From the NCBI RefSeq assembly GCF_019966595.1, contig NZ_JAINFJ010000016.1, forward strand, positions 1-59,831: a DNA stretch of 59,831 nucleotides. The letters are read 5' to 3'. The notes under the pieces were generated by a model, which saw only the letters and a program-made list of their open reading frames with translations, was not told the DNA's origin and made no database searches. Source of the stretch: Oricola indica. GTDB taxonomy: Bacteria > Pseudomonadota > Alphaproteobacteria > Rhizobiales > Rhizobiaceae. Each line of letters opens with the position of its first letter. Within the stretch, counting starts at the first letter, position 1. Positions 18,534-56,890 of the stretch are shown here, one piece after another. The translations under genes and the position numbers were made by a program.

Positions 18534-19456
18534 GCGCCGAGAAACGAAAAAATCAGGATCGTTCGGCCGAAACCCGCGCCAGGGCATCTGGCATGTCAAC
18601 CAAACCCCGGTTCGAAGACTGCTGCGATCCGCGCGAATTGCTCGATCTTACGGGCCGCAGAGGGCTGGTGATCGGTATCGCTAACGAACGCAGTCTCGCG
18701 TGGCCCGGTGCCCTGCATTTTCGACAGTCTGGGGCGGACCTGGCCATCACCTTTGTCGGCGAACGCGCCAGACCGCATGTCGCTCCGCTGGCAGACCGAG
18801 TCGATGCGCCGATTTTCCTGCCTTGCGACGTCGGACGCGCAGGCGAACTCGAAGCCGTATTCGGCGCGATACGCGATACCTGGGGGCGTCTCGACTTCGT
18901 TCTCCACGCCGTGGGAAAGGCCCGAGCCGAGGACCTGCGTGGCCGGCTGACCGATTGTTCCGCCGGGGGCTTCGCCGAGGCCATGACCGTCTCGGTCCAT
19001 TCGCTCATCGCCATCGCCCGCCTGGCCGAACCGTTGATGACACACGGCGGCAGCCTGATTACCCTCAGCTATCTCGGCGCCGAGAAGGTGGTCGAACATT
19101 ACAACGTGATGGGCCCGGTCAAGGCCGCACTCGAATCCACCGTCAGATATCTCGCGCACGAACTCGGGCCGAAGGGCATTCGCGTGAATGCGATCTCCGC
19201 CGGTCCGGTGGCGACGCGCGCCGCGTCCGGATTGGTCGGGTCCACCGAACTTCTGGCCGCCAGCGCGAGGATCGCGCCGCTTCGACGCAATATCGAAACC
19301 GACGACGTCGGACTGGCCGCCCTGCTTCTCGCGAGCGATTACACGGCTGCCATCACTGGCGAGACCCTGCATGTCGATGCCGGAGTGCATATCGAGGGGC
19401 CGGTCGGCAGAGGTCAGATGCAGGGAGAGACCAAACCACGGGAGCAAGAGAAATGA
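18530..19456 (+). CDS. fabI: Enoyl-[acyl-carrier-protein] reductase (FabI-like)
   Basis: A 308-residue short-chain dehydrogenase of the FabI class, which performs the NADH-dependent last step of fatty acid elongation. Cofactor motif GLVIGIANERSLAWPGALHF (about 43-62), catalytic Tyr and Lys in SYLGAEKVVEHYNVMGPVKA, and RVNAISAGPVATRA. The first 30 residues are a charged extension not found in standard FabI (about 260 residues). It overlaps both pta and the following broken Rieske gene by ATGA. Probably a second, accessory FabI rather than the housekeeping copy. Confidence 0.87.
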   Translation: MSAEKRKNQDRSAETRARASGMSTKPRFEDCCDPRELLDLTGRRGLVIGIANERSLAWPGALHFRQSGADLAITFVGERARPHVAPLADRVDAPIFLPCDVGRAGELEAVFGAIRDTWGRLDFVLHAVGKARAEDLRGRLTDCSAGGFAEAMTVSVHSLIAIARLAEPLMTHGGSLITLSYLGAEKVVEHYNVMGPVKAALESTVRYLAHELGPKGIRVNAISAGPVATRAASGLVGSTELLAASARIAPLRRNIETDDVGLAALLLASDYTAAITGETLHVDAGVHIEGPVGRGQMQGETKPREQEK

Positions 19457-20063
19457 CAGACATCGACAGAAGCACGCCCGAGCCGGGTCAAGACAACTCT
19501 CAAAGCAGACAAGATTTTCTTTACTACGCATCAGCTGGAGCGGCTGCAGCGGCCACGGGTGCCGCCGTCTGGCCCCTCATTAATTCGATGAACCCGTCTG
19601 CCGACGTTCTTAGCCTGTCGACTGTACACGTCGACTTGTCCGGTATGGAACGAGGTCAACGGATTACCGTCAGTTGGCAGGGCAGGCCCGTCTTTGTCTG
19701 GCGCCGGTCACAAGAGGCCATCGATGCCGTGCGCGCCACACCGCTTGACGCGTTGGTTGACCAGACGGACAGCGCCAGAGAAAACCCGAACCACACACAG
19801 CCGGAGCCTGTACTTGACCAAAACCGGACGGCAGACGAGGCCGGTGAATGGCTGATCGTCACCGGGATCTGCACGCATCTTGGCTGCGTCCCCGTTGGCA
19901 AGGGATCGGGAGATGCTCTGGGGAGTTCGGCGGATGGTTCTGCCCTTGTCGCGGCTCGCACTAAGACACGTCCGGACGGACCAGGAAGTGGCCTGCCCCG
20001 CGCAACCTCGACTTCCCCCGCTACACGCTCGATGACGATCTGATGTTGACGATCGGGGCATGA
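19453..20063 (+). pseudogene. Rieske iron-sulfur protein, decayed copy
   Basis: The N-terminal two thirds are readable: SRQDFLYYASAGAAAAATGA (membrane anchor), WPLINSMNPSADV and GICTHLGCVPVGKG with the first cluster-binding loop. About 50 bases later the frame must change. The next frame gives GEFGGWFCPCRGSH, then TAA at 19962-19964, then DTSGR and PAPRNLDFPRYTLDDDLML. So there is a frameshift and a nonsense codon, and the cluster-ligand His of CPCHG is Arg. The intact paralog is at 35625-36167. The start overlaps fabI by ATGA. Confidence 0.88.
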
Positions 20064-29513: not shown

Positions 29514-29544
29514 TTGACCTTCCAGTGACTGGAACAATTATTTT
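29514..29544 (+). promoter_or_regulatory. CueR-type promoter/operator for copA and cueR
   Basis: TTGACC (29514-29519) and TATTTT (29539-29544) flank a 19-base spacer with the dyad TTCCAGTGACTGGAA, nearly identical to known CueR boxes. It lies 31 bases before the copA start. Confidence 0.88.
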
Positions 29545-29574
29545 CCGTGAAACAATTCTGAATTGGAGACGTCG

Positions 29575-32085
29575 ATGAACGGCAATCAGTCTGTTTCGCT
29601 TTCCATCGAAGGCATGTCGTGCGCGTCCTGTGTGGGACGGGTCGAGCGCGCGCTTTCTGGAATCGAAGGTGTCCGCGATGTTTCAGTCAATCTGGCAAAC
29701 GAAACGGCCAGGTTGACGATAGAAGACCCGGATCGGCTTGCTGAGGCCGCCAACAAGCTGGACGAACTCGGTTATCCGGCACGGCGGGCAAGCGTCACGC
29801 TGAACATCGAATCGATGTCATGTGCATCCTGTGTCGGACGGGTGGATCACGCGATCGCCGCCGTGCCGGGTGTTCTCGATGTCAACGTGAATCTGGCATC
29901 CGAAACCGCTACTGTCACATATCTTGAAGGGGCGACCGGCCCCGCCGAATTCATCGCGGCGGCGGCCGAAATCGGTTATCCGGCGGAAATCGCCGAAGCT
30001 TCCAGTTCAAGCGACCGTGTGGCCCGCAAGGAGGAAGAAGCCAGAGAGATCAAGCGCCGCACCATGTTGGCGGCTGTTCTTGCCTTGCCTGTGTTCGTGA
30101 TGGAGATGGGCAGCCATGTGATTCCTGGAATGCACGCATTCATCGGAGGCACGATCGGTCATCAGACCAGCTGGATTATCCAGTTCCTGCTGACCACAGC
30201 CGTGCTGCTCGGACCGGGGAGGGTGTTCTACCTCAAAGGTATCCCATCTCTCATCAAGGGGGCCCCGGACATGAACAGCCTCGTCGCGGTCGGAACTGGC
30301 GCGGCCTACATTTACTCCGTCATTGCGACATTCCTGCCCTGGCTTCTTCCGGATGCCGTTCGCGCGGTTTATTTCGAAGCCGCAGCGGTGATCGTGGTGC
30401 TGATCCTGTTGGGACGGTTCCTGGAGGCGCGGGCAAAGGGCCGTACCGGCGCAGCCATCCAGAAGCTTCTTGGCCTTCAGGTGAGAACCGCGCGCGTTCT
30501 GCGCGATGGTGAGCCGGTCGAAGTACCCATCGAGGAAATACGACTTGGCGATGTTCTCCTTGTGCGCCCGGGCGAGCGGATTGCCGTAGACGGCGAACTC
30601 GTGGAAGGCGAGAGCCACGTCGATGAGAGCATGATCACCGGGGAGCCGGTACCAGTCACCAAGGCAACTGGAGGTCCGGTAACCGGCGGCACGGTCAACG
30701 GGGCTGGAAGCTTCCGCTTCCGGGCAACGCGTGTGGGCGCCGATACGACCCTTTCCCAGATCATTCGTATGGTAGAAGAAGCGCAGGGTGCGAAGTTGCC
30801 GATCCAAGGCCTCGTCGACCGGATCACGCTCTGGTTCGTTCCTGCGGTCATGGCGATCGCTGCATTGACGGTCTTGATTTGGCTGATCTTCGGCCCCGAG
30901 CCGGCGCTGACCCTTGCGCTGGTGGCAGGCGTGTCTGTCCTCATCATCGCATGCCCCTGTGCGATGGGTCTTGCCACGCCAACGTCGATCATGGTCGGCA
31001 CCGGACGCGCGGCCGAGATGGGTGTTCTGTTCCGCAAGGGCGACGCATTGCAGATCCTCAGTTCGGTCGACGTGGTCGCATTCGACAAGACCGGCACTCT
31101 CACCGAAGGTCGTCCGGAACTCGTCGACGTGATCGTGGCCGAAGGATTCGACCGCGCCGATGTGCTGGCCCGCGTCGCCATGGTCGAAGAGCAGTCGGAA
31201 CACCCCATTGCCGAAGCGATCGTTCGCGGCGCGCGTCGTGAAGGAGCAGCGCGTCATGAGGTGTCGGAATTCAACTCCATGACGGGTTACGGGGTTCGCG
31301 CCCGCGTCGGAACGACCGAGGTTCTGGTTGGCGCCGACCGGCTGATGCAGCGCAAGGGCCTGGACCTGGGTGCTCTGGCCGCCGAGGAAGCGCAACTGGC
31401 CAGGCGCGGTCACACTGCCCTCTACGCCGCGATTGATGGAAAGGTGGCGGCGGTATTCGGCGTGGCGGATCCAGTGAAATCCGCAAGCGCTGCGGCCATA
31501 CAGGAGTTGCACAAGCTCGGATTGAAAGTGGCTATGATCACGGGCGACAAGCCGGAGACCGCCGAAGCCATCGCAAGGGAAACCGGAATCGATCATGTGA
31601 TCGCCAGAGTTCTTCCCGACGGTAAGGTCGCTGCGCTCGACGAACTACGCAGCAAGGGCCAAAGGATCGCTTTTGTCGGCGATGGCATAAACGACGCGCC
31701 AGCGCTCGCCCATGCCGATGTCGGGATCGCAATCGGAACCGGGACTGACGTCGCCATCGAATCCGCCGACGTCGTACTGATGTCAGGCGACCTTCGCGGC
31801 GTGGTCAACGCATTCGAGGTTTCCCGCCGGACGATGCGCAATATCCGCGAGAATCTTTTCTGGGCGTTCGGATACAACACTGCCCTGATCCCGGTCGCGG
31901 CCGGCGTACTATATCCGACGTTCGGTGTGCTTCTGTCACCCATTTTGGCAGCAGGCGCTATGGGACTATCTTCTGTCTTTGTGCTGACGAACGCGTTGCG
32001 GTTGCGGCGGATCGCTCCGGCAATGGATGAAAGGGCTTCGGCCCACCCAACTCCGGCGCGACTCGTGCCGGCGCCGGCCGAATGA
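29575..32085 (+). CDS. copA: Cu(I)-exporting P1B-1 ATPase CopA
   Basis: An 836-residue inner-membrane pump exporting Cu(I). Two N-terminal HMA domains each carry SCASC (Cys at about 16 and 83). Then come TGEP, the metal-path motif CPC (460-462, [13 protein letters not shown]), DKTGT (504), HPIAEA and GDGIND. I choose the ATG at 29575 (GGAGACGTCG upstream) over the TTG 12 bases earlier. cueR follows with its start 15 bases after the copA stop and probably shares the transcript. Confidence 0.95.
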
Positions 32086-32099
32086 GAAGGAAACTGACG

Positions 32100-32537
32100 A
32101 TGAATATTGGTGATGTCTCACGAATTTCAGGCCTGCCCGCGAAGACGATACGCTACTATGAGGACATCGGCCTCATCCGGCCGCTAAGGGGCGAAAACGG
32201 CTATCGCAGTTTCCAAGACAAGGATCTGCACAAGCTGGCGTTTCTCGGCCGCGCCCGTGCATTGGGCTTCACGATCGAGGATTGTCGGAACCTGCTGGCT
32301 CTCTATGAGGATGATGGACGGGAGAGCGCTGCCGTGAAGCATATCGCCGAAGACCATTTGGCGCGGATCGACGAAAAGATCGCGCAGCTCCGTTCCATGC
32401 GGGCCACTCTCGCTGAACTCGTCAATGCTTGTGCGGGTGACCATCGTCCGGACTGCCCGATACTTAATGATCTTGGCCATGGAGATCGACCTGCAAGCGA
32501 CCAATTGAAAAAGCCAGCAGGTAATTGCAGCCACTAA
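32100..32537 (+). CDS. cueR: Cu(I)-responsive MerR-family activator CueR
   Basis: A 145-residue regulator. The N-terminal helix-turn-helix reads MNIGDVSRISGLPAKTIRYY. The metal loop near the C-terminus is CAGDHRPDCPIL, with the two Cys eight residues apart as in E. coli CueR. It activates copper export promoters by untwisting a 19-bp spacer. The ATG at 32100 with AAGGA upstream is better than the one at 32082. Likely targets in this window are at 29444, 29514, 44706 and perhaps 59669. Confidence 0.93.
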   Translation: MNIGDVSRISGLPAKTIRYYEDIGLIRPLRGENGYRSFQDKDLHKLAFLGRARALGFTIEDCRNLLALYEDDGRESAAVKHIAEDHLARIDEKIAQLRSMRATLAELVNACAGDHRPDCPILNDLGHGDRPASDQLKKPAGNCSH

Positions 32538-33032: not shown

Positions 33033-33257
33033 AACATAGGGTAACCCTGTCCGGCTGACGATGGCGCCAACCCGCGTGAGCGAATACTGAGCGCCACTGC
33101 GGCTCTTTCCGCAATAGCTCAAAAGTCTGCCTTGCCCCGTCGGATCTGCGATAGCGCCCGCTGAAATGCAGGACGCAGTTCGCATTCGTCGCCCCTGTCG
33201 GTTCGGACAAAGCCGAAAATGCAACAGCCCGTGCGGGCGATGCATAAGGAGCGGATA

Positions 33258-33596
33258 ATGGAAGCAATAATATATTTTCTCGTCTGGGCCGGACTGATCC
33301 TGCTCATGATGCGGTTTGGCTGTGGCGCTCATGTAATGGGACATGGCCACAACTCTCGAACAAAGCAGTCGGAGGGAGGTAGCAATACTGATCTGCGCTG
33401 GATTGCGCCTGAAAGTGCCATTGATCCCGTGTGCGGGATCACAGTCCATACGAATGCGGCGAAGTCCGCAGTGCATGACGGGCACGTGTTCTACTTCTGC
33501 TCGCGAGAATGCCGCGAACGCTTTGAGGCGGCACCTGATACATATCTAAATCAGGAATCTGCGACCTTGGAGACAGGGGGGGCCGTTCATGGCTGA
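33258..33596 (+). CDS. Membrane-anchored YHS-domain protein
   Basis: A 112-residue protein: one membrane segment (MEAIIYFLVWAGLILLMMRF), a Gly/His stretch (GCGAHVMGHGHN) reminiscent of DUF2933, then a YHS domain (about 60-105) with IDPVCGITV, HVFYFCSREC and ERFEAAPDTYL. YHS domains bind copper or related metals through their Cys. AAGGAGCGG lies upstream of the chosen ATG. It overlaps the DUF5676 gene by 8 bases and opens an operon that reaches the Rieske gene. Confidence 0.83.
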   Translation: MEAIIYFLVWAGLILLMMRFGCGAHVMGHGHNSRTKQSEGGSNTDLRWIAPESAIDPVCGITVHTNAAKSAVHDGHVFYFCSRECRERFEAAPDTYLNQESATLETGGAVHG

Positions 33597-33912
33597 CTCA
33601 CGCAACTCCAGTCCGGGCTATGCGATCAGGGTCGCTCCGCAGGCGTCGAACACACCGCGTATTCCGGTCATCGCTTTCGGCATGAGCCTTGGCTTGTTTC
33701 TGGCGATCACGTTCGTCCTGTGCGTCGGCTTTGACCTCATCTTTCCGGGAATGGCGATGTACCAGACATGGCTGAAACTTCTTCCCGGATTCACCTGGTT
33801 GAGTGTCCCGAGCTTCCTGCTCGGTCTGGTCGAGGCATTTGCCTACGGCTGGTATGTCGCGCTGATTTTCGGCCCTCTCTTCAACTACTTTGCGGCACGC
33901 AGGTTCCGTTGA
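33589..33912 (+). CDS. DUF5676 small membrane protein, copy 2
   Basis: A 107-residue protein, paralog of 13990-14274, with membrane segments ALG-like VIAFGMSLGLFLAITFVLCV and LVEAFAYGWYVALIFGPLFN. The N-terminal 25 residues are polar. It overlaps the YHS gene, so both are translated together. Function unknown. Confidence 0.83.
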   Translation: MADSRNSSPGYAIRVAPQASNTPRIPVIAFGMSLGLFLAITFVLCVGFDLIFPGMAMYQTWLKLLPGFTWLSVPSFLLGLVEAFAYGWYVALIFGPLFNYFAARRFR

Positions 33913-33938
33913 ACACGGCCATATTAATGGAGACCAAA

Positions 33939-35000
33939 ATGAAAACAGAAATGAAATTCGCGTTAGCGACAGCAACTCTGACTTTGCTCGGAACCGTGCC
34001 GACATTCGCGACCACCGTCTACATTCCAGAGGGGAGCGCTGGAGAAATCCTTGTTGTGGATGCCGACACCGGTTCGGTCGAGGCGCGCTGGCCAGGTTTT
34101 GAGGCTGTCCACGGTCTGGCCGGAGCACCAGGCGCACGTTACATCGTTGCGGGCAGCTATTCCGAGGTGGCGAAAGAAGAAGCAGAGGCGCCGGCGAAAC
34201 CGGAAGGCGTATCGCAAGACGAACACCAAGCGCATCACGCCCCTAGGGCGGCGAGTGTCATGCCCAAAGATGCCGGAGTAAGCATTCTGACGATAGTCGA
34301 AGCAAAGACCGGCGCGGTAGTGCGCCGGATTGAGGTTCCCGGCGCCGTCCATCACGTGGCTATGTCTCCGGACGGCCGCTACGCCGCAGTGACACATCCG
34401 ACCACAGACGGGATCAGTATCATCGATCTCGACACCTTGGCATTCAAAGCGTTCGTGCCGACTGGAACGAGCCCAAACTATGCCGTGTTTGCGCGCGATG
34501 GTAGATCGGTATTCGTTACGAACGCCGACAGCGGAACCACTAGTGAGGTTGACGTCGACAAGACGTTCGTCAAGCGCAATATCCTTTCCGGCGAGGCGCC
34601 GGAGCATGTTGTCATGTCGCACGATGGCAAGCGGCTCTATGTCGCCGATGCCTATGCCGGCAAGGTCCACGAGGTCATCATCTCGGACGGGAACATTTCC
34701 CGGTCTCTGGATGTCGGTGGCGAAATCCATGGGCTTGATCTGTCGGACGATGATGGGACGCTATTCGTTAGCGGCAAGCGCGACGACAAGATTGCCGCTA
34801 TTGACCTGAGCAGCGGCAAAGCAAAATTCGCAGCCTTAGCTCCCGCCCCCTATCACCTGACGACAATAGCCGGGACGAACAGCCTCTACGTCTCAAGTCG
34901 CGAAGAGCCCAAGGTCTGGATCGTCGACCAGGAAAACCTCGCAGTAACGGGCGAGATCGCTGTTTCAGGTGAAGGTCACGAAATGGTGGTGCTCCCCTAA
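33939..35000 (+). CDS. Periplasmic beta-propeller protein (YncE-like)
   Basis: A 353-residue exported protein. The start at 33939 follows TGGAGACC and gives a signal peptide (MKTEMKFALATATLTLLGTV). Repeats such as HHVAMSPDGRYAAVTHPTTD, HVVMSHDGKRLYVADAYAGK and IHGLDLSDDDGTLFVSGKRD are seven-bladed propeller repeats of the YVTN/YncE type. A His/Glu-rich insertion (about 70-100) could bind metal. It stands before the cytochrome c and Rieske genes, so a redox or copper-binding role is possible. Confidence 0.82.
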   Translation: MKTEMKFALATATLTLLGTVPTFATTVYIPEGSAGEILVVDADTGSVEARWPGFEAVHGLAGAPGARYIVAGSYSEVAKEEAEAPAKPEGVSQDEHQAHHAPRAASVMPKDAGVSILTIVEAKTGAVVRRIEVPGAVHHVAMSPDGRYAAVTHPTTDGISIIDLDTLAFKAFVPTGTSPNYAVFARDGRSVFVTNADSGTTSEVDVDKTFVKRNILSGEAPEHVVMSHDGKRLYVADAYAGKVHEVIISDGNISRSLDVGGEIHGLDLSDDDGTLFVSGKRDDKIAAIDLSSGKAKFAALAPAPYHLTTIAGTNSLYVSSREEPKVWIVDQENLAVTGEIAVSGEGHEMVVLP

Positions 35001-35030
35001 GAGCAGCCGGAAAAACGAAAGGAGACTGTC

Positions 35031-35510
35031 ATGTACAGATATGCAACTTCAAACGCCATGACTTCAGCCCTTCTCGGTGGAGCGATCATGTTCGGCCTGG
35101 TGACCGCTTCGTTGGGCCAGGAAAGCGGCATGATGGACGACGGTATGGTGAGCCCGGGTTTGATGAATCCTCAAATGAATCCGATACGAGGCAAGCAGCT
35201 GTTCGCGAGCAAGGGATGCGTTGTGTGCCATTCGATAAACGGCGTCGGCGGCGAGGACGCTCCGGCCCTTGATGCGTCGGCGATGCCCCTACCGATGAAT
35301 CCGTTCGAATTTGCCGCGCGCATGTGGCGGGGTGCAGAGGCGATGGTCGCAATGCAGCGTGACGAACTCGGTGCGCCGATCGAGCTCGACGGTAGCGAAC
35401 TGGCCGACATCATTGCGTTTGTCCACGATGCCGACGTTCAGGCCGAATTCTCCGAAGAGGACATTCCCGAGCGTATCGAGGATCTGATGCACGAATCCGA
35501 TGACGAGTAG
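35031..35510 (+). CDS. Monohaem cytochrome c
   Basis: A 159-residue periplasmic c-type cytochrome: signal peptide (ALLGGAIMFGLVTASLGQ), a Met-rich linker, haem motif CVVCHSIN (about 63), and a likely Met ligand in SAMPLPMNPFEF. The C-terminus is acidic (DLMHESDDE). It is the intact paralog of the pseudogene at 21004. It sits between the beta-propeller and the Rieske gene, a plausible electron partner of the latter. Confidence 0.9.
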   Translation: MYRYATSNAMTSALLGGAIMFGLVTASLGQESGMMDDGMVSPGLMNPQMNPIRGKQLFASKGCVVCHSINGVGGEDAPALDASAMPLPMNPFEFAARMWRGAEAMVAMQRDELGAPIELDGSELADIIAFVHDADVQAEFSEEDIPERIEDLMHESDDE

Positions 35511-35624
35511 ACGCCATCGCGGCGGTGGCGGTGCGTAGTCCGCCATGCGGACCTTGAAACAGGAGCGAGAGGGAACGCCGGACAATCCGGCGTGAACTCC
35601 GTCCAAAGCGCAAGGAGCAATAAT

Positions 35625-36167
35625 ATGTCCGCAATAGTCTCAGATGCCGACAAGTCGGTTACCAAACGCGATTTCATTTACGTTGCAACAGGGGCGATGG
35701 TAGTCGTGGGAGTAGGGGCGTTCGCCTGGCCGTTTATCGACAGCATGAATCCCTCGGCAAGTGTACGAAGCCTCGCAACGGTCGAAATCCCGTTGGGCGA
35801 CATTGAGGTCGGCCAGCGAGTGACGGTCATGTGGCGTGGCCGTCCTGTGTTTGTCGACAGACGGACGAAAGCTCAAATCGATGCGGCAGTCGCTGACGAC
35901 GATGCTGATCTTATCGATCCTCAAAGCGATGCAGATCGTGTGCAGAATCCCGAGTGGCTGATCGTGGTTGGGGTGTGCACGCATCTCGGCTGCATCCCAC
36001 TCGGGCAGAAGGATTCCGATCCAAGGGGCAATTGGGGTGGCTGGTACTGCCCGTGCCACGGTTCACAATACGACACGTCCGGGCGTGTAAGGCGGGGCCC
36101 TGCACCCAAGAACCTCGTCGTTCCGCCCTACGAGCTTATGGACGGCGAGAGCGTCGTTATCGGCTGA
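35625..36167 (+). CDS. Rieske iron-sulfur protein, intact orphan copy
   Basis: A 180-residue protein like the Rieske subunit (PetA) of the cytochrome bc1 complex. An N-terminal anchor (DFIYVATGAMVVVGVGAFAW) is followed by WPFIDSMNPSASV. The 2Fe-2S ligands are in CTHLGC and CPCHGSQYDTSGR. No cytochrome b or c1 gene is nearby, so it is an orphan. CAAGGAGCAA precedes the start. Its nearest companion is the cytochrome c 114 bases upstream; the same pair occurs in broken form at 19453-21473. Confidence 0.92.
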   Translation: MSAIVSDADKSVTKRDFIYVATGAMVVVGVGAFAWPFIDSMNPSASVRSLATVEIPLGDIEVGQRVTVMWRGRPVFVDRRTKAQIDAAVADDDADLIDPQSDADRVQNPEWLIVVGVCTHLGCIPLGQKDSDPRGNWGGWYCPCHGSQYDTSGRVRRGPAPKNLVVPPYELMDGESVVIG

Positions 36168-36188: not shown

Positions 36189-37574
36189 GTGACAAAATCT
36201 CCCGCAAATGCTTTGCGATTTCTCGGTGCAACCGGAACAGTAACCGGATCGCGATACCTTCTCGAAGCGAACGGACGGCGAATCCTGATCGATTGCGGTT
36301 TGTTCCAAGGGTTCAAACAACTGCGCCGGCGCAATTGGCTGCCGTTCCCCGTCCGCCCCGGTTCGATCGATGCGGTACTCCTGACACATGCGCATCTCGA
36401 TCACTCGGGATATCTGCCGGCGCTAGTGCGCGACGGGTTCGAGGGGCCGGTTTATTGTACGGAATCGACGGTGGAACTTTGCGGGCTCCTGCTGCCAGAC
36501 AGCGGTCACCTTCAAGAAGAAGATGCAAAGTATGCCAAGCGCAAACGCTATTCGAAGCATGCCGATCCGAGGCCGCTCTACACGTTGAAGGACGCGGAAA
36601 GCGCTGTTGATAGCCTGGAGGCGAAGGAATTTGATCGCCGCTTCGACCTCGGAAACGGGATAACGGCGGAATTCGTGCCTGCAGGCCATTTGCTCGGCGC
36701 AGCGCAGATCCGGATTGAGATCGATGGCCGTTCTATTCATTTCAGCGGCGATCTCGGGCGCAACTCCGATCCGCTAATGCGCGCACCTCGGTCGTTGCGC
36801 GAAGTCGACGTCCTCATCTGCGAGTCGACCTACGGCAACCGAAAGCACGCCAACATTGATCCGAAAGCGGAATTGGCGCCGGTCATCAACCGTGTCTGCT
36901 CCCGCGGCGGCGTAATCCTAATTCCGGCTTTCGCGATCGGCCGTGCGCAGGGTGTGATGTATCACATCGCGCGGCTGCGGAAACGCGGCGAAATTCCTTA
37001 TTTGCCGGTCTATTTGAACAGTCCCATGGCCGTCGATGCGACCGAAATCTATCACAATCATCACGAAGAGCATCACGTCACCTGGGACGACTGCGTTGCA
37101 ATGTTTAGGCTTGCCGAACGCGTACGCTCCGTAGCGGAATCCAAGGAGCTAAACACGCGCAGGGGGCCGATGATCATAATCTCTGCAAGCGGAATGCTGA
37201 GTGGAGGTAGGGTGTTGCATCACCTCGCCAGCTTCGGCACCGACCCGAAGAATGCCATTCTGCTCTCCGGTTATCAGGCTGGCGGCACGCGTGGCGCGGC
37301 GCTCGTCGGCGGAGCCAGGACCCTGCGCATGTTCGGTCGCGAAGTCGAGATCAATGCGGAGGTGGTGCAAATGGAGAGTTTTTCCGGTCACGCCGATGTC
37401 GACGAAATCATGACCTGGCTGACTGGCGCAGCCCGTCCTCCGGCGATGACCTATCTTACGCATGGAGAACCGGATGCGGCAGATGCGTTGCGCTGGCGCA
37501 TCGAGCATGAGTTGGGCTGGCACGTACGCGCACCGGAACATCTTGAACGGATCAGTCTGGACCATCCGAAATGA
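36189..37574 (+). CDS. Metallo-beta-lactamase/beta-CASP ribonuclease-like protein
   Basis: A 461-residue protein of the CPSF73-like bacterial group. Zinc motif LTHAHLDHSGYLP (about 62), PAGHLLGAAQIRIE, FSGDLGR, the beta-CASP segment with CESTYGNRKHA and the C-terminal SGHADVDEI. Enzymes of this family cut RNA endo- or exonucleolytically. The start is GTG at 36189 after a strong GAGGAGGAG. It overlaps the AMP phosphorylase gene by ATGA. Confidence 0.88.
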   Translation: MTKSPANALRFLGATGTVTGSRYLLEANGRRILIDCGLFQGFKQLRRRNWLPFPVRPGSIDAVLLTHAHLDHSGYLPALVRDGFEGPVYCTESTVELCGLLLPDSGHLQEEDAKYAKRKRYSKHADPRPLYTLKDAESAVDSLEAKEFDRRFDLGNGITAEFVPAGHLLGAAQIRIEIDGRSIHFSGDLGRNSDPLMRAPRSLREVDVLICESTYGNRKHANIDPKAELAPVINRVCSRGGVILIPAFAIGRAQGVMYHIARLRKRGEIPYLPVYLNSPMAVDATEIYHNHHEEHHVTWDDCVAMFRLAERVRSVAESKELNTRRGPMIIISASGMLSGGRVLHHLASFGTDPKNAILLSGYQAGGTRGAALVGGARTLRMFGREVEINAEVVQMESFSGHADVDEIMTWLTGAARPPAMTYLTHGEPDAADALRWRIEHELGWHVRAPEHLERISLDHPK

Positions 37575-39082
37575 ACCAGAGCCACAACGTTCTTCGCATT
37601 CTTAGGGCGCGCGTTGATACTTATCAGCAACCGATTGTATTTATGCGTTCGGATTGTCACGTCTGTTCCTCGGAGGGATTCTCCGCTTTGACACGTGTCA
37701 GGATAGCCTGCGGCGCTCGGTCCGTCGTTGCGACCCTCAACGTTGTTCATGACGAGGATTGGATCCCGCACGGCACCGCGCTTCTGTCGGAAGCGGCCTG
37801 GAAGGCCTTGGCACCTTCCGAAAACGCAACCGCGGCGTTCACGCATCCCGACCCTCCGCAATCCGCTTCGGCGCTGCGCGCGAAGGTGTTCGGTATAAAA
37901 CTGATACAGGACGACTTCCTCTCAATCATCCGCGATGCATTGGCCGGCAATCTCTCCGATCTCGAATTGGCGGCGTTCGTCACGGCGTGCGCGGGGGATC
38001 GCCTCGACCTCGACGAGACCATCGCCTTGACGAAAGCGATGCTGGCGGTTGGCGAGCGCATCGATTGGGGCGCCGGCTATGTCCTCGACAAACATTGTGT
38101 CGGCGGATTGCCGGGCAACCGCACGACGCCAATCGTTGTGGCGATAATAGCTGCGGCGGGAAAACGAATCCCCAAGACCTCGTCGCGCGCCATCACGTCT
38201 CCGGCGGGTACTGCCGACACGATGGAAACCATGGCGCCGGTGAGCCTCAACCTCGCCGCCATGCGCAAGGTCGTCGAGAAGGAAGGCGGCTGCGTCGTCT
38301 GGGGCGGACATGTCCGACTGAGTCCCGCCGACGACGTCCTTGTTCGGGTCGAACGCCCGCTCGATTTCGACAGCGCGGGACAGCTTGTCGCCAGCGTCTT
38401 GTCGAAGAAGGCGGCTGCCGGATCGAGTCACGTACTGATCGACATTCCGGTCGGACCGACGGCGAAGATTCGCACGGACAGTAGCGCGAGCGCGCTTTCC
38501 GGCCGGTTGGCCGCGACGGCGGAAGTGCTTGGGCTGCAACTTCGCGTGGCCAGGACAGATGGCATACAGCCGGTCGGATTCGGTATTGGCCCGGCCCTCG
38601 AGGCGCGCGATGTGTTGGCCGTGCTGCGCGGCGAGCCGTTCGCGCCAAGCGACCTTCGCGAGCGCGCCGTTCTGTTGGCGGGGGCGCTCCTGGATATGGC
38701 ACCCGACGGAAACGGTACCGGAAAAATGCGCGCGCATCAGTTGCTTGACAGCGGCGAGGCCCTGGCAAAGTTCATCGCCATCTGCGACGCGCAGGGAGGT
38801 TTTCGGGAACCCGGTGCCGCCGCGTATAGATTTCCGTTCCCGGCAAGCACGACCGGGAAGGTCGCGAGCATCGACAATCGCCGGTTGACAAAAGTCGCCA
38901 AACTCGCAGGTGCCCCATCGAACGCCGAAGCGGGAGTGTTTTGCCGTCTAAAGGTAGGAGATCGGGTCGACATCGGCGACAGGCTGTTTGAAATCTGCGC
39001 GAATACGCCAGGTGCGCTCGACTATGCCTTGGAGTTTGCGGCCGCCCATGACGGTATCGTCGAGGTGAGGGACGAGGAATGA
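37571..39082 (+). CDS. AMP phosphorylase / thymidine phosphorylase family
   Basis: A 503-residue enzyme with the archaeal AMP phosphorylase layout: an N-terminal extension of about 90 residues, then the pyrimidine phosphorylase core. DKHCVGGLPGNRTTPIVV (about 176) is the phosphate-binding signature and SPAGTADTMETMAPV follows. AMP phosphorylase turns a nucleoside 5'-monophosphate and phosphate into base plus ribose 1,5-bisphosphate. It overlaps its neighbours on both sides by ATGA, between a nuclease and a PRPP synthetase. Confidence 0.88.
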   Translation: MNQSHNVLRILRARVDTYQQPIVFMRSDCHVCSSEGFSALTRVRIACGARSVVATLNVVHDEDWIPHGTALLSEAAWKALAPSENATAAFTHPDPPQSASALRAKVFGIKLIQDDFLSIIRDALAGNLSDLELAAFVTACAGDRLDLDETIALTKAMLAVGERIDWGAGYVLDKHCVGGLPGNRTTPIVVAIIAAAGKRIPKTSSRAITSPAGTADTMETMAPVSLNLAAMRKVVEKEGGCVVWGGHVRLSPADDVLVRVERPLDFDSAGQLVASVLSKKAAAGSSHVLIDIPVGPTAKIRTDSSASALSGRLAATAEVLGLQLRVARTDGIQPVGFGIGPALEARDVLAVLRGEPFAPSDLRERAVLLAGALLDMAPDGNGTGKMRAHQLLDSGEALAKFIAICDAQGGFREPGAAAYRFPFPASTTGKVASIDNRRLTKVAKLAGAPSNAEAGVFCRLKVGDRVDIGDRLFEICANTPGALDYALEFAAAHDGIVEVRDEE

Positions 39083-39996
39083 AGCCCCTCCTTCTGTCCT
39101 TTCCCGATGATCGCGATCTGGCCCGCGAAATTGCGAATTGCATCGGAGCTGAAACCGGACGACTCGTCTGGCACCGCTTTCCCGATGGCGAGTCCCTGGT
39201 ATCGATCGACGAGGCCGTGAAGGGGCGAGACGTCATCCTCGTCGCATCTTTAAGGCATCCGGACCGGATCGCGCTGCCATTGCGGTTCGTTGTCATGACC
39301 GCGCGAGAATTCGGAGTGCGTTCACTCGGCCTCGTTGCACCCTATCTCGCCTATATGCGCCAGGACAGGAGGTTCCATCCGGGCGAGGCAGTCAGTGCGC
39401 CTCTCTTCGCGCGTTTCCTCGAGGAAGGCGTCGATTGGCTGGTTACCGCCGACCCGCATCTGCACCGCAATCCCGATCTGTCCCGGCTCTTCGAGATTTC
39501 TACCAGGACTGTAGCGACCGCCCCGCTGATCGCCGACTGGATCAAGCAGAATGTAACTCGGCCGGTCCTCATCGGACCGGATTCGGAGAGCAAACAGTGG
39601 GTCGCAAGCATAGCGGCACGGATCGACGCGCCTTACCAGATACTCGAAAAGACGCGACGCGGTGATCGCGATGTTTCGATAAGCATTCCAGATTTCTCGC
39701 AAGCCGAAAAAGGGACGCCGGTGATCGTGGACGACATCGTGTCGTCGGGCAGAACGATGATCGAGACAGCCGGACATCTCCGGGAACTCGGTCTTCCACC
39801 CGCTATATGCGTGATTATCCATCCGGTTTTTGCCGGAAATGCCTACGAGGAACTGCTCGATGCCGGCGTGGCGTCATTGGTGAGTACCAATTCAATCGCG
39901 CATCGATCGAACGCGATTTCGATCGCCGGTCCGTTGGCATCCGCCATAGGCGAACTTTCGAATTTCCAAATCAGAAAGCACGGAGACAAGAATTGA
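39079..39996 (+). CDS. Ribose-phosphate pyrophosphokinase-like protein
   Basis: A 305-residue protein of the PRPP synthetase family. It has RFPDGESLV, the ATP-region loop YLAYMRQDRRFHPGE (about 91), TADPHLHRN with the metal-binding His, and the PRPP loop PVIVDDIVSSGRTM (about 214). It likely transfers pyrophosphate from ATP to ribose 5-phosphate, or has been adapted to the product of its neighbour. It lacks several surface features of the housekeeping hexameric enzyme, so it is an accessory copy. Confidence 0.87.
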   Translation: MKPLLLSFPDDRDLAREIANCIGAETGRLVWHRFPDGESLVSIDEAVKGRDVILVASLRHPDRIALPLRFVVMTAREFGVRSLGLVAPYLAYMRQDRRFHPGEAVSAPLFARFLEEGVDWLVTADPHLHRNPDLSRLFEISTRTVATAPLIADWIKQNVTRPVLIGPDSESKQWVASIAARIDAPYQILEKTRRGDRDVSISIPDFSQAEKGTPVIVDDIVSSGRTMIETAGHLRELGLPPAICVIIHPVFAGNAYEELLDAGVASLVSTNSIAHRSNAISIAGPLASAIGELSNFQIRKHGDKN

Positions 39997-39998
39997 AA

Positions 39999-40424
39999 AT
40001 GAAATTGAACCTCCCGAAGATATTTGTTCTCGGATTCTTTGCGCTCGGAGCGGCCGTCCTACTCTCGAAATTTTTCCGGGGTGAACCCGAAACAGCGATT
40101 GTGGCCGTATCGATGCCGGAACTGTCGAGTGAAGCAAGCGTTGGTCAGATACTCTTCAACAACAACTGTGCCAGTTGCCATGGCGATCGTGCATCCGGAA
40201 CGGACAAAGGGCCTCCGCTGATCCACGACATTTACAATCCGGGACATCACTCGGATGATGCGTTCTATCTGGCAGCCATGAATGGTGTGGTCCAGCATCA
40301 CTGGCCATACGGCAATATGCCGAAGCAGGAGCAGGTCACGCCGGACGAGGTGGCGAAGATCGTCCAATATGTTCGCGAGTTGCAGGTCGCCAACGGTATA
40401 ACGTTCAAACCGCACAACATGTGA
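39999..40424 (+). CDS. Class I cytochrome c
   Basis: A 141-residue membrane-anchored or exported cytochrome: N-terminal hydrophobic segment ([19 protein letters not shown]), haem motif CASCHGD (about 54) and a likely Met ligand in [12 protein letters not shown] ribosome-binding site (CGGAGACAAG) lies inside the end of the preceding gene. The start is 2 bases after the PRPP synthetase stop, so the two are coupled, and the ATPase follows 20 bases later. Confidence 0.87.
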
Positions 40425-40444
40425 CACGACAAGGAGCGATTGCG

Positions 40445-42670
40445 ATGACCTCCCAGCACGAGCACCATTATCACACGGCGGACGCCGAAGGCACCTCTTC
40501 GGCCGGCCAAGGCCAGTATGACGAAGTTCCGGCTGGATATAGCGGACCCGTCTATACCTGCCCAATGCACCCTCAAGTGCGCCGGACGCATTCCGGATCT
40601 TGCCCGATATGCGGCATGGGGCTGGAACTGGAATCGGCAACTATGGTTGAAGAGGGGCCGAATCCCGAACTTGTCGATTTCACTCGGCGCTTATGGATTG
40701 GCGCGGTCCTGAGTATTCCTCTCCTGATCCTGACCATGGGTCCCTTCGTCGGTCTTTCCGGCGTTCGGGAGATCTTCGGAGAACGAGCAACCTTGTGGAT
40801 CGAACTTGTGCTCGGCACGCCGGTCGTTCTCTGGTCGGGTTGGCCGTTCCTTGTCCGCGGCTGGAACTCCTTCCGCACGATGAATCTGAACATGTTTAGT
40901 CTGATCGCGATGGGCGTCATGGCGGCATGGACATTCAGTGTCGTCGCCGTGCTGTTTCCAGGTATTTTCCCCGATGGCTTCCGAGATCCAGAAGGTCATG
41001 TGGGCGTTTATTTCGAAGCCGCAGCCGTCATCGTCACCTTGGTGCTCCTCGGGCAGGTGATGGAACTGCGCGCTCGTGAGGGTACCGGCAAGGCGATCCG
41101 GGCACTCCTCGATATGGCGGCAAAGACGGCCCGCGTGATACGCGACGACGGCACGGAAGAGGAAATTCCGCTCGAACATGTTGGGGTTGGCGACCGCATT
41201 CGCGTGCGTCCCGGCGACAAGGTTCCCGTGGATGGCGTGGTGGTCGATGGTCGTTCATCGATCGACGAAAGCATGATCACCGGCGAACCCGTTCCGGTCG
41301 AGAAAGTTTCAGGCGATCCAGTGACGGGCGCAACCATCAACGGCACTGGCAGCCTTATTATGGAAGCTACACGCGTCGGCGCCGACACGATGCTGAGCCA
41401 GATCGTCGAAATGGTCGCCAACGCACAACGGTCCCGGGCGCCAATCCAGAAATATGCCGACAAGGTATCCGGCTATTTCGTGCCGGCGGTGATCGCTATC
41501 GCTGTACTTGCTTTCCTGGGCTGGGCGTTTTGGGGCCCGGAACCCGCCCTTTCATATGCGCTCATCGCCGCGGTCGCGGTACTGATCATAGCCTGTCCCT
41601 GCGCCCTCGGTCTCGCCACCCCAATGTCGATCATGACGGCAACGGGACGCGGAGCTCAAGCAGGCGTGCTCATAAAGAATGCGGAGGCGCTCGAGAGGTT
41701 CGAGAAAGTTGATACGCTAATCGTCGACAAGACAGGCACGTTGACCGAAGGCAAGCCGCGATTGGTGGCGGTCCTGGCGGAGAACGGCCATGACGAGACC
41801 GAAGTGCTGCGTCTGGCGGCGTCCCTTGAACGGGGTTCGGAACACCCGCTCGCCGAAGCCATCGTAAGGGGAGCCGAAGAGCGAGGCGTGGAGATGGCCG
41901 CGGCCGGCGACTTCGAGGCCGTTACCGGCAAAGGCGTCAAGGGTACAGTGGATGGCAGAGCCGTGGCGCTCGGCAATCTCGCGATGATCCGCGAGCTTGG
42001 CCTGGAGGCGGGGGACTTGACCGAAAAAGCCAATGGCCGCCGCGATGAAGGCGAGACGGTCATGTTCGTCGTCGTCGACAATGGCGTCGCCGGACTCGTA
42101 TGCGTCGCCGATCCGGTAAAAGAAACAACCCCCGACGCGCTGAAGGCTCTGCATGAACTTGGATTCCGCATCATCATGGCGACCGGAGATAACGAACGAA
42201 CGGCGAAAGCCGTTGCTGCGCGCCTGGGCATTGACGAGATCCGCGCCGACGTGCTTCCCGAAGACAAGGCGCGCATCATCCAGGAATTGCAGCAGCAGGG
42301 TCGCAAGGTCGCGATGGCCGGCGACGGCGTGAACGACGCTCCGGCTCTGGCTCAGGCCGACGTGGGAATTGCGATGGGAACCGGCGCCGATGTCGCGATC
42401 GAAAGCGCTGGATTTACCTTGGTCAAAGGAAATCTCGACGGGATCGTCAGGGCCCGCCGTCTGGCCCACGGGACCATGCGCAACATACGGCAGAACCTGT
42501 TTTTCGCCCTGATCTACAATACGTTGGGCGTTCCGGTAGCTGCAGGCGTTCTCTTCCCGTTCTTCGGCATCCTGATTAGTCCGATGTTCGCCGCCTTCGC
42601 GATGAGCGCTTCTTCGATCTCTGTTGTCGTCAATTCGCTCAGACTGCGGCAACTGGATTTGAGATCCTGA
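40445..42670 (+). CDS. Heavy-metal P1B ATPase with HMBD domain (Cu/Ag type)
   Basis: A 741-residue pump. Instead of HMA domains the N-terminus has a His-rich stretch (HEHHYHT) and a YHS-like metal-binding domain with [11 protein letters not shown] (Cys 39) and [11 protein letters not shown] (about 52-58), as in SilP and related copper pumps. Then TGEP, CPC (384-386), DKTGT (428), SEHPLAEAI and GDGVND. It probably moves Cu(I) or Ag(I) out of the cytoplasm. AAGGAG precedes the ATG at 40445. No CueR-type box was seen upstream; it may be read from the upstream operon. Confidence 0.93.
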
Positions 42671-43207: not shown

Positions 43208-43882
43208 ATGTTGACCCGGGTAATTCTGGCCGCGCTTGTCGCGGGATTGCTCGCTGGTGTGTTCGCGACTGCGGCGCAATCAGTGCGGGTTATCCCGTTG
43301 ATCCTCCAAGCCGAAGCTTATGAAGAGGGGGTGTCACACGCTGAGACCGAGGACGAAGTCTGGGCGCCCGAAGAAGGGTTGCAGCGGACGTTTTTTACGT
43401 TGCTCTCGAATCTCGTGACCGGTGTTGCATTCGCACTGATTTTGACGGCTATCATTCTGATATTAGACCAACCGGTGTCGCTCCGGCATGGCGCGCTTTG
43501 GGGGGCGGGCGGGTTCGCGGTTTTCGTTCTCGCCCCAAACTTCGGTCTTCCGCCTGAATTGCCCGGTATGGCGTCTGGCGATCTGACCGCAAGACAGGCC
43601 TGGTGGATCGCCACGGTCTTGCTCACTGGAGGAGGCCTACTGATTTTCGCGTTCAAGGATTCGGTTTCCTGGATGGGAGCGGGCGTAATGCTTATTGTGG
43701 CACCTCACGTATACGGTGCGCCGCAGAACCCAGCAGGTGAATCAGCCGTTCCGGCAGAACTCGCGGCAGAGTTTGCCATCGCGACCGTCGTCACCTCGGC
43801 TCTGTTCTGGCTGTTTCTTGGCGCGGTTCTTGGACAGCTTCTCTCGCGCGTGATCGAGGGCCGATCGAGTGAGCCAGGTTAG
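43208..43882 (+). CDS. cbtA: Cobalt transporter subunit CbtA
   Basis: A 224-residue membrane protein with about six segments. It has the CbtA start (MLTRVILAALVAGLLAGVFA) and family motifs PNFGLPPELPGM and HVYGAPQNPAGESAVPAELA. CbtAB is predicted to import cobalt for cobalamin synthesis. It ends just before the cytochrome b561 gene. Confidence 0.9.
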   Translation: MLTRVILAALVAGLLAGVFATAAQSVRVIPLILQAEAYEEGVSHAETEDEVWAPEEGLQRTFFTLLSNLVTGVAFALILTAIILILDQPVSLRHGALWGAGGFAVFVLAPNFGLPPELPGMASGDLTARQAWWIATVLLTGGGLLIFAFKDSVSWMGAGVMLIVAPHVYGAPQNPAGESAVPAELAAEFAIATVVTSALFWLFLGAVLGQLLSRVIEGRSSEPG

Positions 43883-43883
43883 A

Positions 43884-44399
43884 ATGCCGAGTAAGCTCTT
43901 GTCCGACCCTTGTAATGAGAAAAGGCCCAAGCGCCCTTATTCGCTCTTGCAGATCCTGCTGCACTGGCTGGTGGTAATCCTGATTTTTGAGCAATGGTAC
44001 ACGTCGCGCGCAATCCCTCGAACCCACAATCCTCTTCTTCCGCCGTCAGATGCCGATCTCTTGCAGCACGCGCTTCACATCTATGCCGGCATTGTTATTG
44101 GCATAGTCATGGCGCTTCGGCGCATGTTGGCATATGCGAGCTACCGTCGGCGGCCGCAAATTCGGCCGCGGTTGACGGAACGCCTGGCATCGATCGTTCA
44201 CGGTGGGCTCTATTTTGCAGTGTTTTTCCAAGCCGCTACAGGCTTTGTAACGACATATCTCTGGGGCCCCGCGAGGGTTTTCCATGCGTATCTCTGGGAT
44301 GTCATTCTGATACTTGCGTCTGTCCACATCGCCGCGGCCGTCTATCATCTGATACGCGGCGACGGAGTGCTCCGGCGGATGATCCCGCGGTTTCGATAA
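43884..44399 (+). CDS. Cytochrome b561-family membrane protein
   Basis: A 171-residue di-haem type membrane protein with four segments and the His ligands in LLQILLHWLVVILI, DADLLQHALHIYAGIV, ERLASIVHGGLYFAVFF and VILILASVHIAAAVYHL. Such proteins move electrons from quinol. A GTG 15 bases upstream would overlap cbtA; the ATG at 43884 follows an AGG. It could share the B12-controlled transcript. Confidence 0.83.
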   Translation: MPSKLLSDPCNEKRPKRPYSLLQILLHWLVVILIFEQWYTSRAIPRTHNPLLPPSDADLLQHALHIYAGIVIGIVMALRRMLAYASYRRRPQIRPRLTERLASIVHGGLYFAVFFQAATGFVTTYLWGPARVFHAYLWDVILILASVHIAAAVYHLIRGDGVLRRMIPRFR

Positions 44400-55777: not shown

Positions 55778-56273
55778 TTCACGAGCCCTATCCGCCGCCT
55801 TCCTTACCCTTGCGGTATTGATCTCTCCTGCCGTTGGTCACGACTTCCAAGCCGGTTCGATCACCATCAATCATCCGTGGTCGCGCGCGACTCCGCCGGT
55901 CGCGCCGGTAGCCGGCGGCTATCTGACGCTAACGAACGATGGCGGTATGGCCGACCGTCTGGTTTCGATCTCATCACCTCTGTCAGAACGGGCGGAAATC
56001 CACGAGTCGACCGTGATCGACGGGGTTGCCAGCATGAGGCCGGTGCAAAATGGCATCGAAATTGGGGCTGGCAAGACGGTCGAACTTCAACCTGGCGGTA
56101 TACACATCATGTTTTTGAAGCCATCGCGTCCTTTGAAGGAAGGGGAGCGGTTTGCCGCAACACTGGTGTTCGAGCAGGCCGGTACCATCGACGTTGAGTT
56201 CGCTGTGCAGAACATGGGTGCTCGTCCGGAATTTGCGAACGAACATGACGGGCACGGAGAGGCTGTCCAATGA
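55770..56273 (+). CDS. PCuAC-type periplasmic copper chaperone
   Basis: A 167-residue exported protein (signal peptide ALSAAFLTLAVLISPAVG). The copper site HESTVIDGVASM (His, Met) is followed 20-odd residues later by GGIHIMFLKP (His, Met), the H(x)nM...HxM pattern of PCuAC. The end is His-rich (NEHDGHGEAVQ). It delivers Cu(I) to Sco or cytochrome oxidase in other systems. It lies next to sco here. Confidence 0.9.
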   Translation: MISSRALSAAFLTLAVLISPAVGHDFQAGSITINHPWSRATPPVAPVAGGYLTLTNDGGMADRLVSISSPLSERAEIHESTVIDGVASMRPVQNGIEIGAGKTVELQPGGIHIMFLKPSRPLKEGERFAATLVFEQAGTIDVEFAVQNMGARPEFANEHDGHGEAVQ

Positions 56274-56890
56274 GCGGCGTCAAACTTTTCCGTCTTGTTG
56301 CATGGGTTGCCGTCGCCGCTGTCGGTGGGCTTTTCATCGGCTTGTCAGTGTCCAAGCCTTGGCAGCAGCAAAATGCGGCGGTCGCGTCTTCGACAGGCAT
56401 CGCAGCTATCGGCGGCCCGTTCCAGCTCACATCGCATCAAGGCGGGACGATCGACAATGCCGCGCTTGCTGGAAAGCCTTATCTCGCCTTCTTCGGCTTC
56501 ACCCATTGTCCCGATGTGTGTCCGACGACGCTCTACGAACTCAGCGATCTCATGAACGAGCTCGGGCCGGTGGCCGACCAGTTCAACGTACTGTTCTTCA
56601 CCGTCGATCCCGAACGAGACAGCCAAGAGCTGCTGGCTCAATACATGACAGCCTTTGATGATCGCATCCTCGCATTGCGGGGAAATCGACAGGAAACGGA
56701 CGCCGTGGTGAAGGCCTTTGCGGCCTACGCGCGAAAAGTGCCTCTGGAGGGGGGCGAATACACGATGGATCACACCGCAGGCGTCTACATGATGGATGCC
56801 GAGAGCCAATTCGTCGGCACGCTCGACATGCACGAGCCGCGTGAGATTCGCTTGCAGAAGCTCCGCCGTCTAGTGGGCGAGATTGGCTGA
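56270..56890 (+). CDS. SCO1/SenC-family copper thiol protein
   Basis: A 206-residue membrane-anchored thioredoxin-fold protein: GFTHCPDVCPTTLYELS holds the CxxxC copper site (about 83), TVDPERDSQELL follows, and the third ligand His is in YTMDHTAGVYMMD. It helps assemble the copper centre of cytochrome oxidase. It overlaps both neighbours by 4 and 1 bases. Confidence 0.92.
   Translation: MSGVKLFRLVAWVAVAAVGGLFIGLSVSKPWQQQNAAVASSTGIAAIGGPFQLTSHQGGTIDNAALAGKPYLAFFGFTHCPDVCPTTLYELSDLMNELGPVADQFNVLFFTVDPERDSQELLAQYMTAFDDRILALRGNRQETDAVVKAFAAYARKVPLEGGEYTMDHTAGVYMMDAESQFVGTLDMHEPREIRLQKLRRLVGEIG

Follow-up and report, generated by a model that had tools for sequence, protein, structure and literature searches.

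Gene content of the locus

The DNA analyzed here (hereafter, the window) is an entire contig of Oricola indica, C7, of 59831 bases. Our subject is a group of five genes at 33258-36167, which encode two small membrane proteins, a beta-propeller, a cytochrome c and a Rieske protein. All five open reading frames (ORFs) are on the forward strand; two of them overlap, and no spacer is longer than about 115 bases:

33258..33596, forward: YHS-domain protein (PF04945, 42.8 bits against a cut-off of 30.3)
33589..33912, forward: DUF5676 protein (PF18926, 36.1 bits against 27.6)
33939..35000, forward: seven-bladed beta-propeller, YncE-type (Pfam, 32.2 bits against 27.1)
35031..35510, forward: monohaem cytochrome c with a Met-rich stretch before CxxCH (PF00034, 31.9 bits against 21.3)
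35625..36167, forward: Rieske [2Fe-2S] protein, an orphan of the bc1 (PetA) family in the copper-island group (TIGR01416, Pfam, trees)

A sequence-only reading of this DNA had described five co-oriented genes with short spacers, and both the arrangement and the families were confirmed, the latter by Pfam and NCBIfam models. The YHS gene has an alternative in-frame ATG at 33219; its product contains the Cys-bearing YHS domain and, according to hydropathy, one predicted N-terminal transmembrane segment. The DUF5676 ORF overlaps the YHS gene by 8 bases and shows two transmembrane-like windows. The same two genes adjoin in related copper loci too.

For comparison of the propellers (37) and cytochromes (74), one sequence per locus was taken, window included, with exact duplicates removed and near-duplicates retained. 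The CxxCH motif is kept in 73 of the 74 cytochromes. Met counts in the 45 residues before it run from 0 to 8, with a median of 5.5, and at least three His are found in the last 35 residues of 34 sequences; this richness in Met and His suggests contact with copper. The window Rieske protein matches the Pfam Rieske domain (37.5 bits, cut-off 20.3), the twin-arginine translocation (TAT) signal family PF10399 (62.1 bits, cut-off 24) and the NCBIfam bc1 Rieske model TIGR01416 (208.3 bits, cut-off 97.4). It possesses the cluster boxes CTHLGC and CPCHGS, the Ser and Tyr of high-potential Rieske proteins, and the GPAP loop.

Gene order in related loci

The sequence-only reading had treated the five genes as one module. 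The full order was found in only four fetched loci besides the window (L023, L078, L079, and L083), the first three of which are near-identical to it, while other loci have it shuffled or partial; a fixed five-gene operon was therefore rejected. A plasmid of Nitratireductor rhodophyticola carries a near-identical set, followed by genes for a cytochrome c, a copper ATPase, CbtAB, and a multicopper oxidase. A Hoeflea plasmid has genes one to four and no Rieske gene, and on an Indioceanicola plasmid the Rieske gene precedes YHS-DUF5676. On a Ruegeria plasmid, genes for the propeller, a metallo-beta-lactamase (MBL) protein, a phosphorylase, phosphoribosyl pyrophosphate (PRPP) synthetase, and a copper ATPase are followed by the cytochrome-Rieske pair. 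Outside the Alphaproteobacteria, a plasmid of the gammaproteobacterium Halomonas encodes the propeller, YHS-DUF5676, and a copper ATPase. The Rieske-bearing plasmid of Ensifer has a cation transporter among its annotated neighbors and no named copper gene, and that of Bosea yielded zero marker matches.

Of the conserved neighborhoods sought by the sequence-only reading, the cytochrome-Rieske pair stood: in 17 of the 44 loci with a Rieske gene, the cytochrome gene lies directly upstream of it on the same strand, less than 200 bases away; L023, L078, and L079 among these are near-identical. The five-gene order did not. Cytochrome loci were taken from the best 80 of 98 relatives, and 77 were counted (L127, L143, and L156 had no CYC match). 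Single-sequence searches of these 77 found a copper P-type ATPase in 47, the propeller in 30, the Rieske protein in 20, DUF5676 in 18, YHS in 5, and cytochrome b in 0. For the 42 loci with at least 5 kb on each side, the respective counts were 31, 20, 12, 15, 4, and 0. The five genes are recurring parts of alphaproteobacterial copper islands, not one fixed module.

Linkage of the Rieske gene to copper genes

The Rieske protein had been noted for having no cytochrome b nearby. Indeed, a PF00033 search of the genome revealed no cytochrome b beyond contigs C11 and C8, hence none in the window (cytochrome c1 was not searched for). The 112 fetched loci with any marker match, 44 of which hold a Rieske gene, likewise gave no cytochrome b. 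Copper markers, defined as single-sequence tblastn matches at E 1e-5, were present in 33 of these 44; in the other 11 none was found.

A search with the Rieske sequence only gave matches in 331 of 387 alphaproteobacterial genomes. We examined the best 29 loci besides the window and 12 further multi-match genomes, leaving out the neighborhoods L227 to L230 (29-35% identity). Among the best 29 loci, cytochrome b is adjacent in 23 and absent in 5, and 1 ends at a contig end. All five Rieske genes without cytochrome b have copper markers within approximately 18 kb: a CueR-like regulator in L058, a copper ATPase in L059, L060, and L062, and a multicopper oxidase in L061. In contrast, the same search found copper markers in 0 of 20 bc1-linked loci of this survey; the control comprised 20 of the 23 such loci, nine of them shortened by contig ends or starts. 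The orphan Rieske gene among copper genes, often with its own cytochrome, is thus a recurrent alphaproteobacterial arrangement, as the sequence-only reading had implied. In the 12 further genomes, the unlinked Rieske genes of at least 57% identity are L219, L220, L221, and L231, with copper markers near all except L219; L219 groups with ordinary bc1 rows (as L232 in the second tree below), and L231 is degraded. The distant unlinked Rieske genes L222 to L225 (37-49% identity) have no copper marker near.

Lineage and conserved residues of the Rieske proteins

The first tree contained 84 Rieske proteins (32 orphan, 51 bc1-linked, and 1 unknown). Excluded from it were the frameshifted WIN_19492, L084, and L119, the partial L127 and L136, and any rows that were identical over their last 150 residues. 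On this tree, the orphan label needs 2 changes versus a shuffled mean of 25.8, the bootstrap not being settled. The window protein is placed among orphans from other families, and in the 11 genomes having both types the orphans stand apart from the resident bc1 Rieske proteins. Grouping within ordinary PetA had been named as a point against novelty: by TIGR01416 the protein does belong to the PetA family, but its group consists of other copper-island orphans. All 32 orphans carry Arg65; so do six of the 51 bc1-linked rows, and these six branch beside or among the orphans. A second, quick tree was built from 76 rows, with about half of the bc1-linked rows omitted and the six basal ones retained. 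It shows one exception to the separation of orphans from resident proteins: in genome G622, the bc1-operon Rieske L212 is sister to the island Rieske L233 (Shimodaira-Hasegawa-like approximate likelihood ratio test, 98), as would be expected if the operon and the island had exchanged their copies, or after a duplication.

In the bc1-linked rows, 61 columns reach a conservation of at least 90%; the orphans retain 54 of these at a level of 85% or more, and the cluster ligands together with the Ser and Tyr of high-potential Rieske proteins are present in all 32. At the TAT signal/anchor, the window protein has Lys-Arg, and Arg occupies the first position in 29 of 32 orphans. Ten of 12 genomes checked contain two Rieske genes and one cytochrome b gene, the latter beside the resident Rieske gene; the other two are the genome of O. 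indica itself (two cytochromes b and two intact Rieske genes) and a 61%-complete one (no cytochrome b and one Rieske gene). A Rieske protein alone cannot form the Qo site and needs cytochrome b for quinol oxidation. Taken together, the kept bc1 columns, the presence of two Rieske genes per cytochrome b, and this need favor docking on the cytochrome b of the host. An alternative quinol route, put forward in the sequence-only reading, is not supported, given the same need, the retained bc1 residues, and the lack of any cytochrome b match in the 112 loci.

As a separate observation, a Rieske homolog in L236 at about 8000 (G552:C71:20946-21455) has the boxes CTYRGA and CPVCTS, with both His ligands lost.

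Predicted histidine hub of the propeller

We consider the histidine hub of the propeller the most interesting feature of the five genes; it was absent from the sequence-only reading, as was a second, frameshifted Rieske copy described below. In numbering from the ATG at 33939, H58, H138, H139, H223, H264, H306, and H347, which presumably line the hub, are invariant in 37 of 37 propellers. The His/Glu-rich insert that had been pointed out is real and conserved: its H96, H99, and H100 (HxxHH) are likewise invariant in 37 of 37. All ten residues are also present in the homologs from Halomonas and from a Martelella plasmid.

An AlphaFold2 (AF2) model built from 17 sequences had a mean predicted local distance difference test (pLDDT) score of 87.3, with the insert region below 60. 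Its strand order gives seven blades, the C-terminal strand closing the first. In this order, the invariant His lie no more than three residues from where the innermost strands start. Each blade contributes one, except for blade III, which contributes two, and blade IV, which has Asn-Tyr at the corresponding place and contributes none. An archaeal YVTN propeller, 1l0q, matched by profile (E 1.5e-49) and ranked first by Foldseek (TM-score 0.77), and the nitrous oxide (N2O) reductase 5i5j ranked 13 with a TM-score of 0.74; with such scores, the fold alone is not decisive. A control propeller in L239 has His at one of eight compared positions. L073, which encodes a propeller of the window family, also encodes another YVTN propeller at approximately 5033-5896; this one has several hub His and a His-rich insert of its own.

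Similarity of the propeller to nitrous oxide reductase

The CuZ site of N2O reductase, as described in PMC11573801, is formed by seven His from all blades but IV, with a consecutive pair in blade II and blade I contributing via the C-terminal strand. The window propeller, judged by sequence and strand order and not by coordinates, resembles this scheme in having seven blades, seven hub His, none in blade IV, one consecutive pair, and a blade I His supplied by the C-terminal strand. Its pair is in blade III, whereas solved N2O reductase has it in blade II. However, two clade III L-NosZ proteins (P0001 and P0002), which score over the model cut-off and come from 2 of 398 genomes, have the motif order H, HH, Asp-Tyr, H, H, H, H, which puts the pair in the same blade as in the window propeller. 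In MAFFT alignments, P0002 shares six of the seven His columns, the seventh being displaced by one position; P0001 shares five, has another displaced by one position, and offers no match to H58. The L-NosZ His at those columns would be copper ligands. This order-preserving match is based on MAFFT, the second BLASTP piece, and the motif order. Close kinship is opposed by the low identity of that BLASTP piece (20%), by the repeat-shifted register of the other pieces, including the best one, and by hhalign, which also prefers repeat-shifted registers.

Several differences are evident. The window propeller is shorter, at 353 residues, than the stretch of P0001 and P0002 that was matched (about 500), and has the HxxHH insert in addition. 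The protein ends at the last propeller strand and has no CuA cupredoxin domain. The catalytic Lys, which in clades I and II lies 15 residues after the His of blade VII/VI, has a counterpart of matching spacing in P0001 (K294 after H279); the propellers have Arg (20), Ala (12), Ser (3), or Asp (2) there, and Lys in none of the 37. The score with the NosZ clade III model NF052460 is 65.5 bits against a cut-off of 700. An N2O reductase in the strict sense was rejected, given the missing CuA and Lys and this score. The best NosD candidate in the genome has 20.7 bits against a cut-off of 300, the 14 control genomes also staying under the cut-off. Since CuA, the catalytic Lys, and a NosD over the cut-off are all lacking, N2O reduction by the propeller is unlikely. 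The nos_propeller family PF18764 had no match in the genome or in the controls and is hence uninformative. The propeller is likely to be a periplasmic multi-copper-binding protein.

Genomic surroundings

Other features of the window related to the five genes are as follows:

29563..32085, forward: Cu(I) P-type ATPase with two HMA domains, CopA type
32082..32537, forward: MerR-family regulator, CueR-like (Pfam MerR)
40421..42670, forward: second copper P-type ATPase with an HMBD domain, recurring across many related loci
about 19454-20062, forward: further Rieske copy of this family with a frameshift and an interruption, presumably a pseudogene (or an assembly error)

Over the aligned piece, the CueR-like regulator shares 100% identity with the gene annotated as cueR on the N. 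rhodophyticola plasmid. A CueR operator before the YHS gene was considered and rejected, as pattern counts were no higher than in shuffled sequences (29 versus a mean of 30.4, and 5 versus 3.0). The best CueR-like site near a copper gene, with two mismatches, is at 29518, before the CopA gene, and none precedes the YHS gene.

Downstream of the Rieske gene there are genes for a beta-CASP MBL protein, an adenosine monophosphate (AMP)/thymidine-phosphorylase-type enzyme, PRPP synthetase, the second copper ATPase, CbtA, and cytochrome b561, the last two at 43208-44399. The MBL, phosphorylase, PRPP synthetase, and copper ATPase genes (36189-42670) form a cassette whose order is kept in many Rhodobacterales copper loci, an association of nucleotide genes with copper genes. 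SCO1 and a DsbD-type protein, further periplasmic metal/redox genes, are encoded at 56270-57633, and a Tn3 transposase is present on the same contig.

The frameshifted Rieske copy is situated behind genes for acetate kinase, Pta, and a protein resembling short-chain dehydrogenases/reductases (SDR; a reading of the translation). Frameshifted or degraded Rieske genes also occur in L084, L119, and L235. The chromosomal petA is intact and lies beside cytochrome b on contig C11. A second complete cytochrome b is encoded on C8 (49787-51088; L182 9285-10589) and is 76-77% identical to the chromosomal one; no Rieske match was found beside it in the fetched stretch. Just upstream of it, ORF translations read like a transposase remnant (a reading of the translation, not a model match).

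A possible role in periplasmic copper defense

We give roughly even chances to the interpretation that the five genes serve as accessories of a mobile island for periplasmic copper defense, comprising an exchangeable Rieske protein, a CuZ-like propeller, and YHS/DUF5676 partners of ATPases. First, the Rieske protein would be a horizontally spread paralog of the bc1 iron-sulfur subunit, docking on the host cytochrome b as an exchangeable or backup subunit under copper stress. Second, the adjacent Met-rich monohaem cytochrome c would be its probable electron acceptor or a copper-tolerant relay. Third, the seven hub His of the propeller could form a CuZ-like multi-copper site in the periplasm, probably loaded or gated by the HxxHH insert. 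Finally, the YHS and DUF5676 proteins may act as small membrane partners of copper ATPases.

A number of observations weigh against this interpretation. On the side of the propeller, the hub geometry was taken from strand order because the model gave no coordinates. Hub His are not unique to this family, since four of the eight positions compared are His in the control propeller of L073, and a single hub His is found in hydrazine synthase beta and NirF. TIGR03866 scores higher (110 bits, 17/17 members) than L-NosZ (65.5 bits, 15/17), as does the hydrazine synthase beta model, all below their cut-offs. On the side of the Rieske protein, its gene is present in just 20 of the 77 related cytochrome loci, and 11 of the 44 Rieske loci have no copper marker. 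Among the latter, L232 and L236-L239 are distant or outside the group, L028 (the Bosea plasmid) and L154 are inside it, and L105, L106, L109, and L110 hold the cytochrome. The orphan label needs 4 changes on the second tree, and a single orphan clade, not rejected by the approximately unbiased test (p 0.161), is yet not shown. Arg65 is present in the later bc1-linked rows L212 and L214 as well, and the second cytochrome b on C8 could be a private partner of the orphan Rieske protein.

Of the alternatives, one that we think unlikely though deserving of real weight regards the propeller as an AztD-like metallochaperone for copper (or zinc) with no redox role, the Rieske protein and the cytochrome being unrelated hitch-hikers. 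It would account for the loose gene order among islands, and the hub and the HxxHH insert do resemble the pore site and the His99/His102 hairpin of AztD (PMC6689063). However, the propeller scores 29.1 bits with the AztD model NF038015 against a cut-off of 400, the hub has seven His and not three, and the cytochrome and the Rieske protein recur as a pair.

A periplasmic chain independent of bc1, in which the membrane-anchored Rieske protein would shuttle single electrons between the cytochrome c and the copper propeller, for instance in Cu(I) oxidation with a respiratory oxidase as the final sink, is in our estimate improbable. It is consistent with the 17 loci where the orphan Rieske gene stands beside its own cytochrome, and with the adjacency of Met-rich cytochromes and the His-ring propeller to copper ATPases. 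On the other hand, the 54 kept bc1 columns seemingly exceed the needs of a free carrier, and the cytochrome is often alone (Rieske in 20 and propeller in 30 of the 77 loci). Decidedly improbable, in our opinion, is a new copper redox system that would act, e.g., as a Cu(I) oxidase coupled to the cytochrome or as a small-molecule reductase. It would be made up of a stand-alone CuZ-type propeller, spread by copper-resistance plasmids and islands and bearing a multinuclear copper center on its seven hub His, a dedicated Met-rich cytochrome that exchanges electrons with it and replaces CuA, and a plug-in Rieske protein connecting it through the host bc1 to the quinol pool. A split second bc complex of the orphan Rieske protein with the C8 cytochrome b is hardly credible: this cytochrome b is complete, Rieske-less in the fetched stretch, and preceded by the transposase-like remnant, but a second cytochrome b was found in 0 of 11 other genomes with such a Rieske gene.

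Should the hub of the propeller bind copper, CuZ-like sites would exist outside N2O reductase, in small exported proteins encoded on many plasmids and islands, and would help to study the assembly and origin of such sites. Should the defense-island Rieske protein swap into bc1, mobile elements would carry replacement parts for a core respiratory enzyme, providing metal resistance by protection or rerouting of the target and not by metal export. Silver is reported to damage cbb3 oxidase and succinate dehydrogenase (PMC6247083, which does not contain the word Rieske). In the passages of the open-access papers searched, we found no CuZ-like site outside N2O reductase, no mobile Rieske protein swapping into bc1, and no paper on DUF5676.

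Comparison with other known systems

YncE/YVTN propellers (1l0q, 3vgz) share the fold and the repeat family with the window propeller; at the hub positions, in the aligned parts, 1l0q has no His and YncE mostly none. AztD, according to PMC6689063, contains a three-His site in its pore and another to which His99 and His102 on a hairpin belong. It resembles the window protein in being a periplasmic propeller with a pore His site and an additional site that includes a hairpin-borne HxxH pair, whereas it differs in having eight blades and three pore His and in being the partner of a zinc ATP-binding cassette (ABC) transporter.

For the Rieske protein, the nearest parallel is provided by the unlinked Rieske proteins of Rubrivivax gelatinosus and Rhodospirillum rubrum, reported as functionally redundant in PMC6256036 (citing Ouchane 2005). 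As far as that source describes them, they likewise belong to the bc1 family and are encoded away from cytochrome b in genomes with a complete bc1. In contrast to them, the group of the window Rieske protein is horizontally spread, tied to copper islands, and often accompanied by a Met-rich cytochrome.

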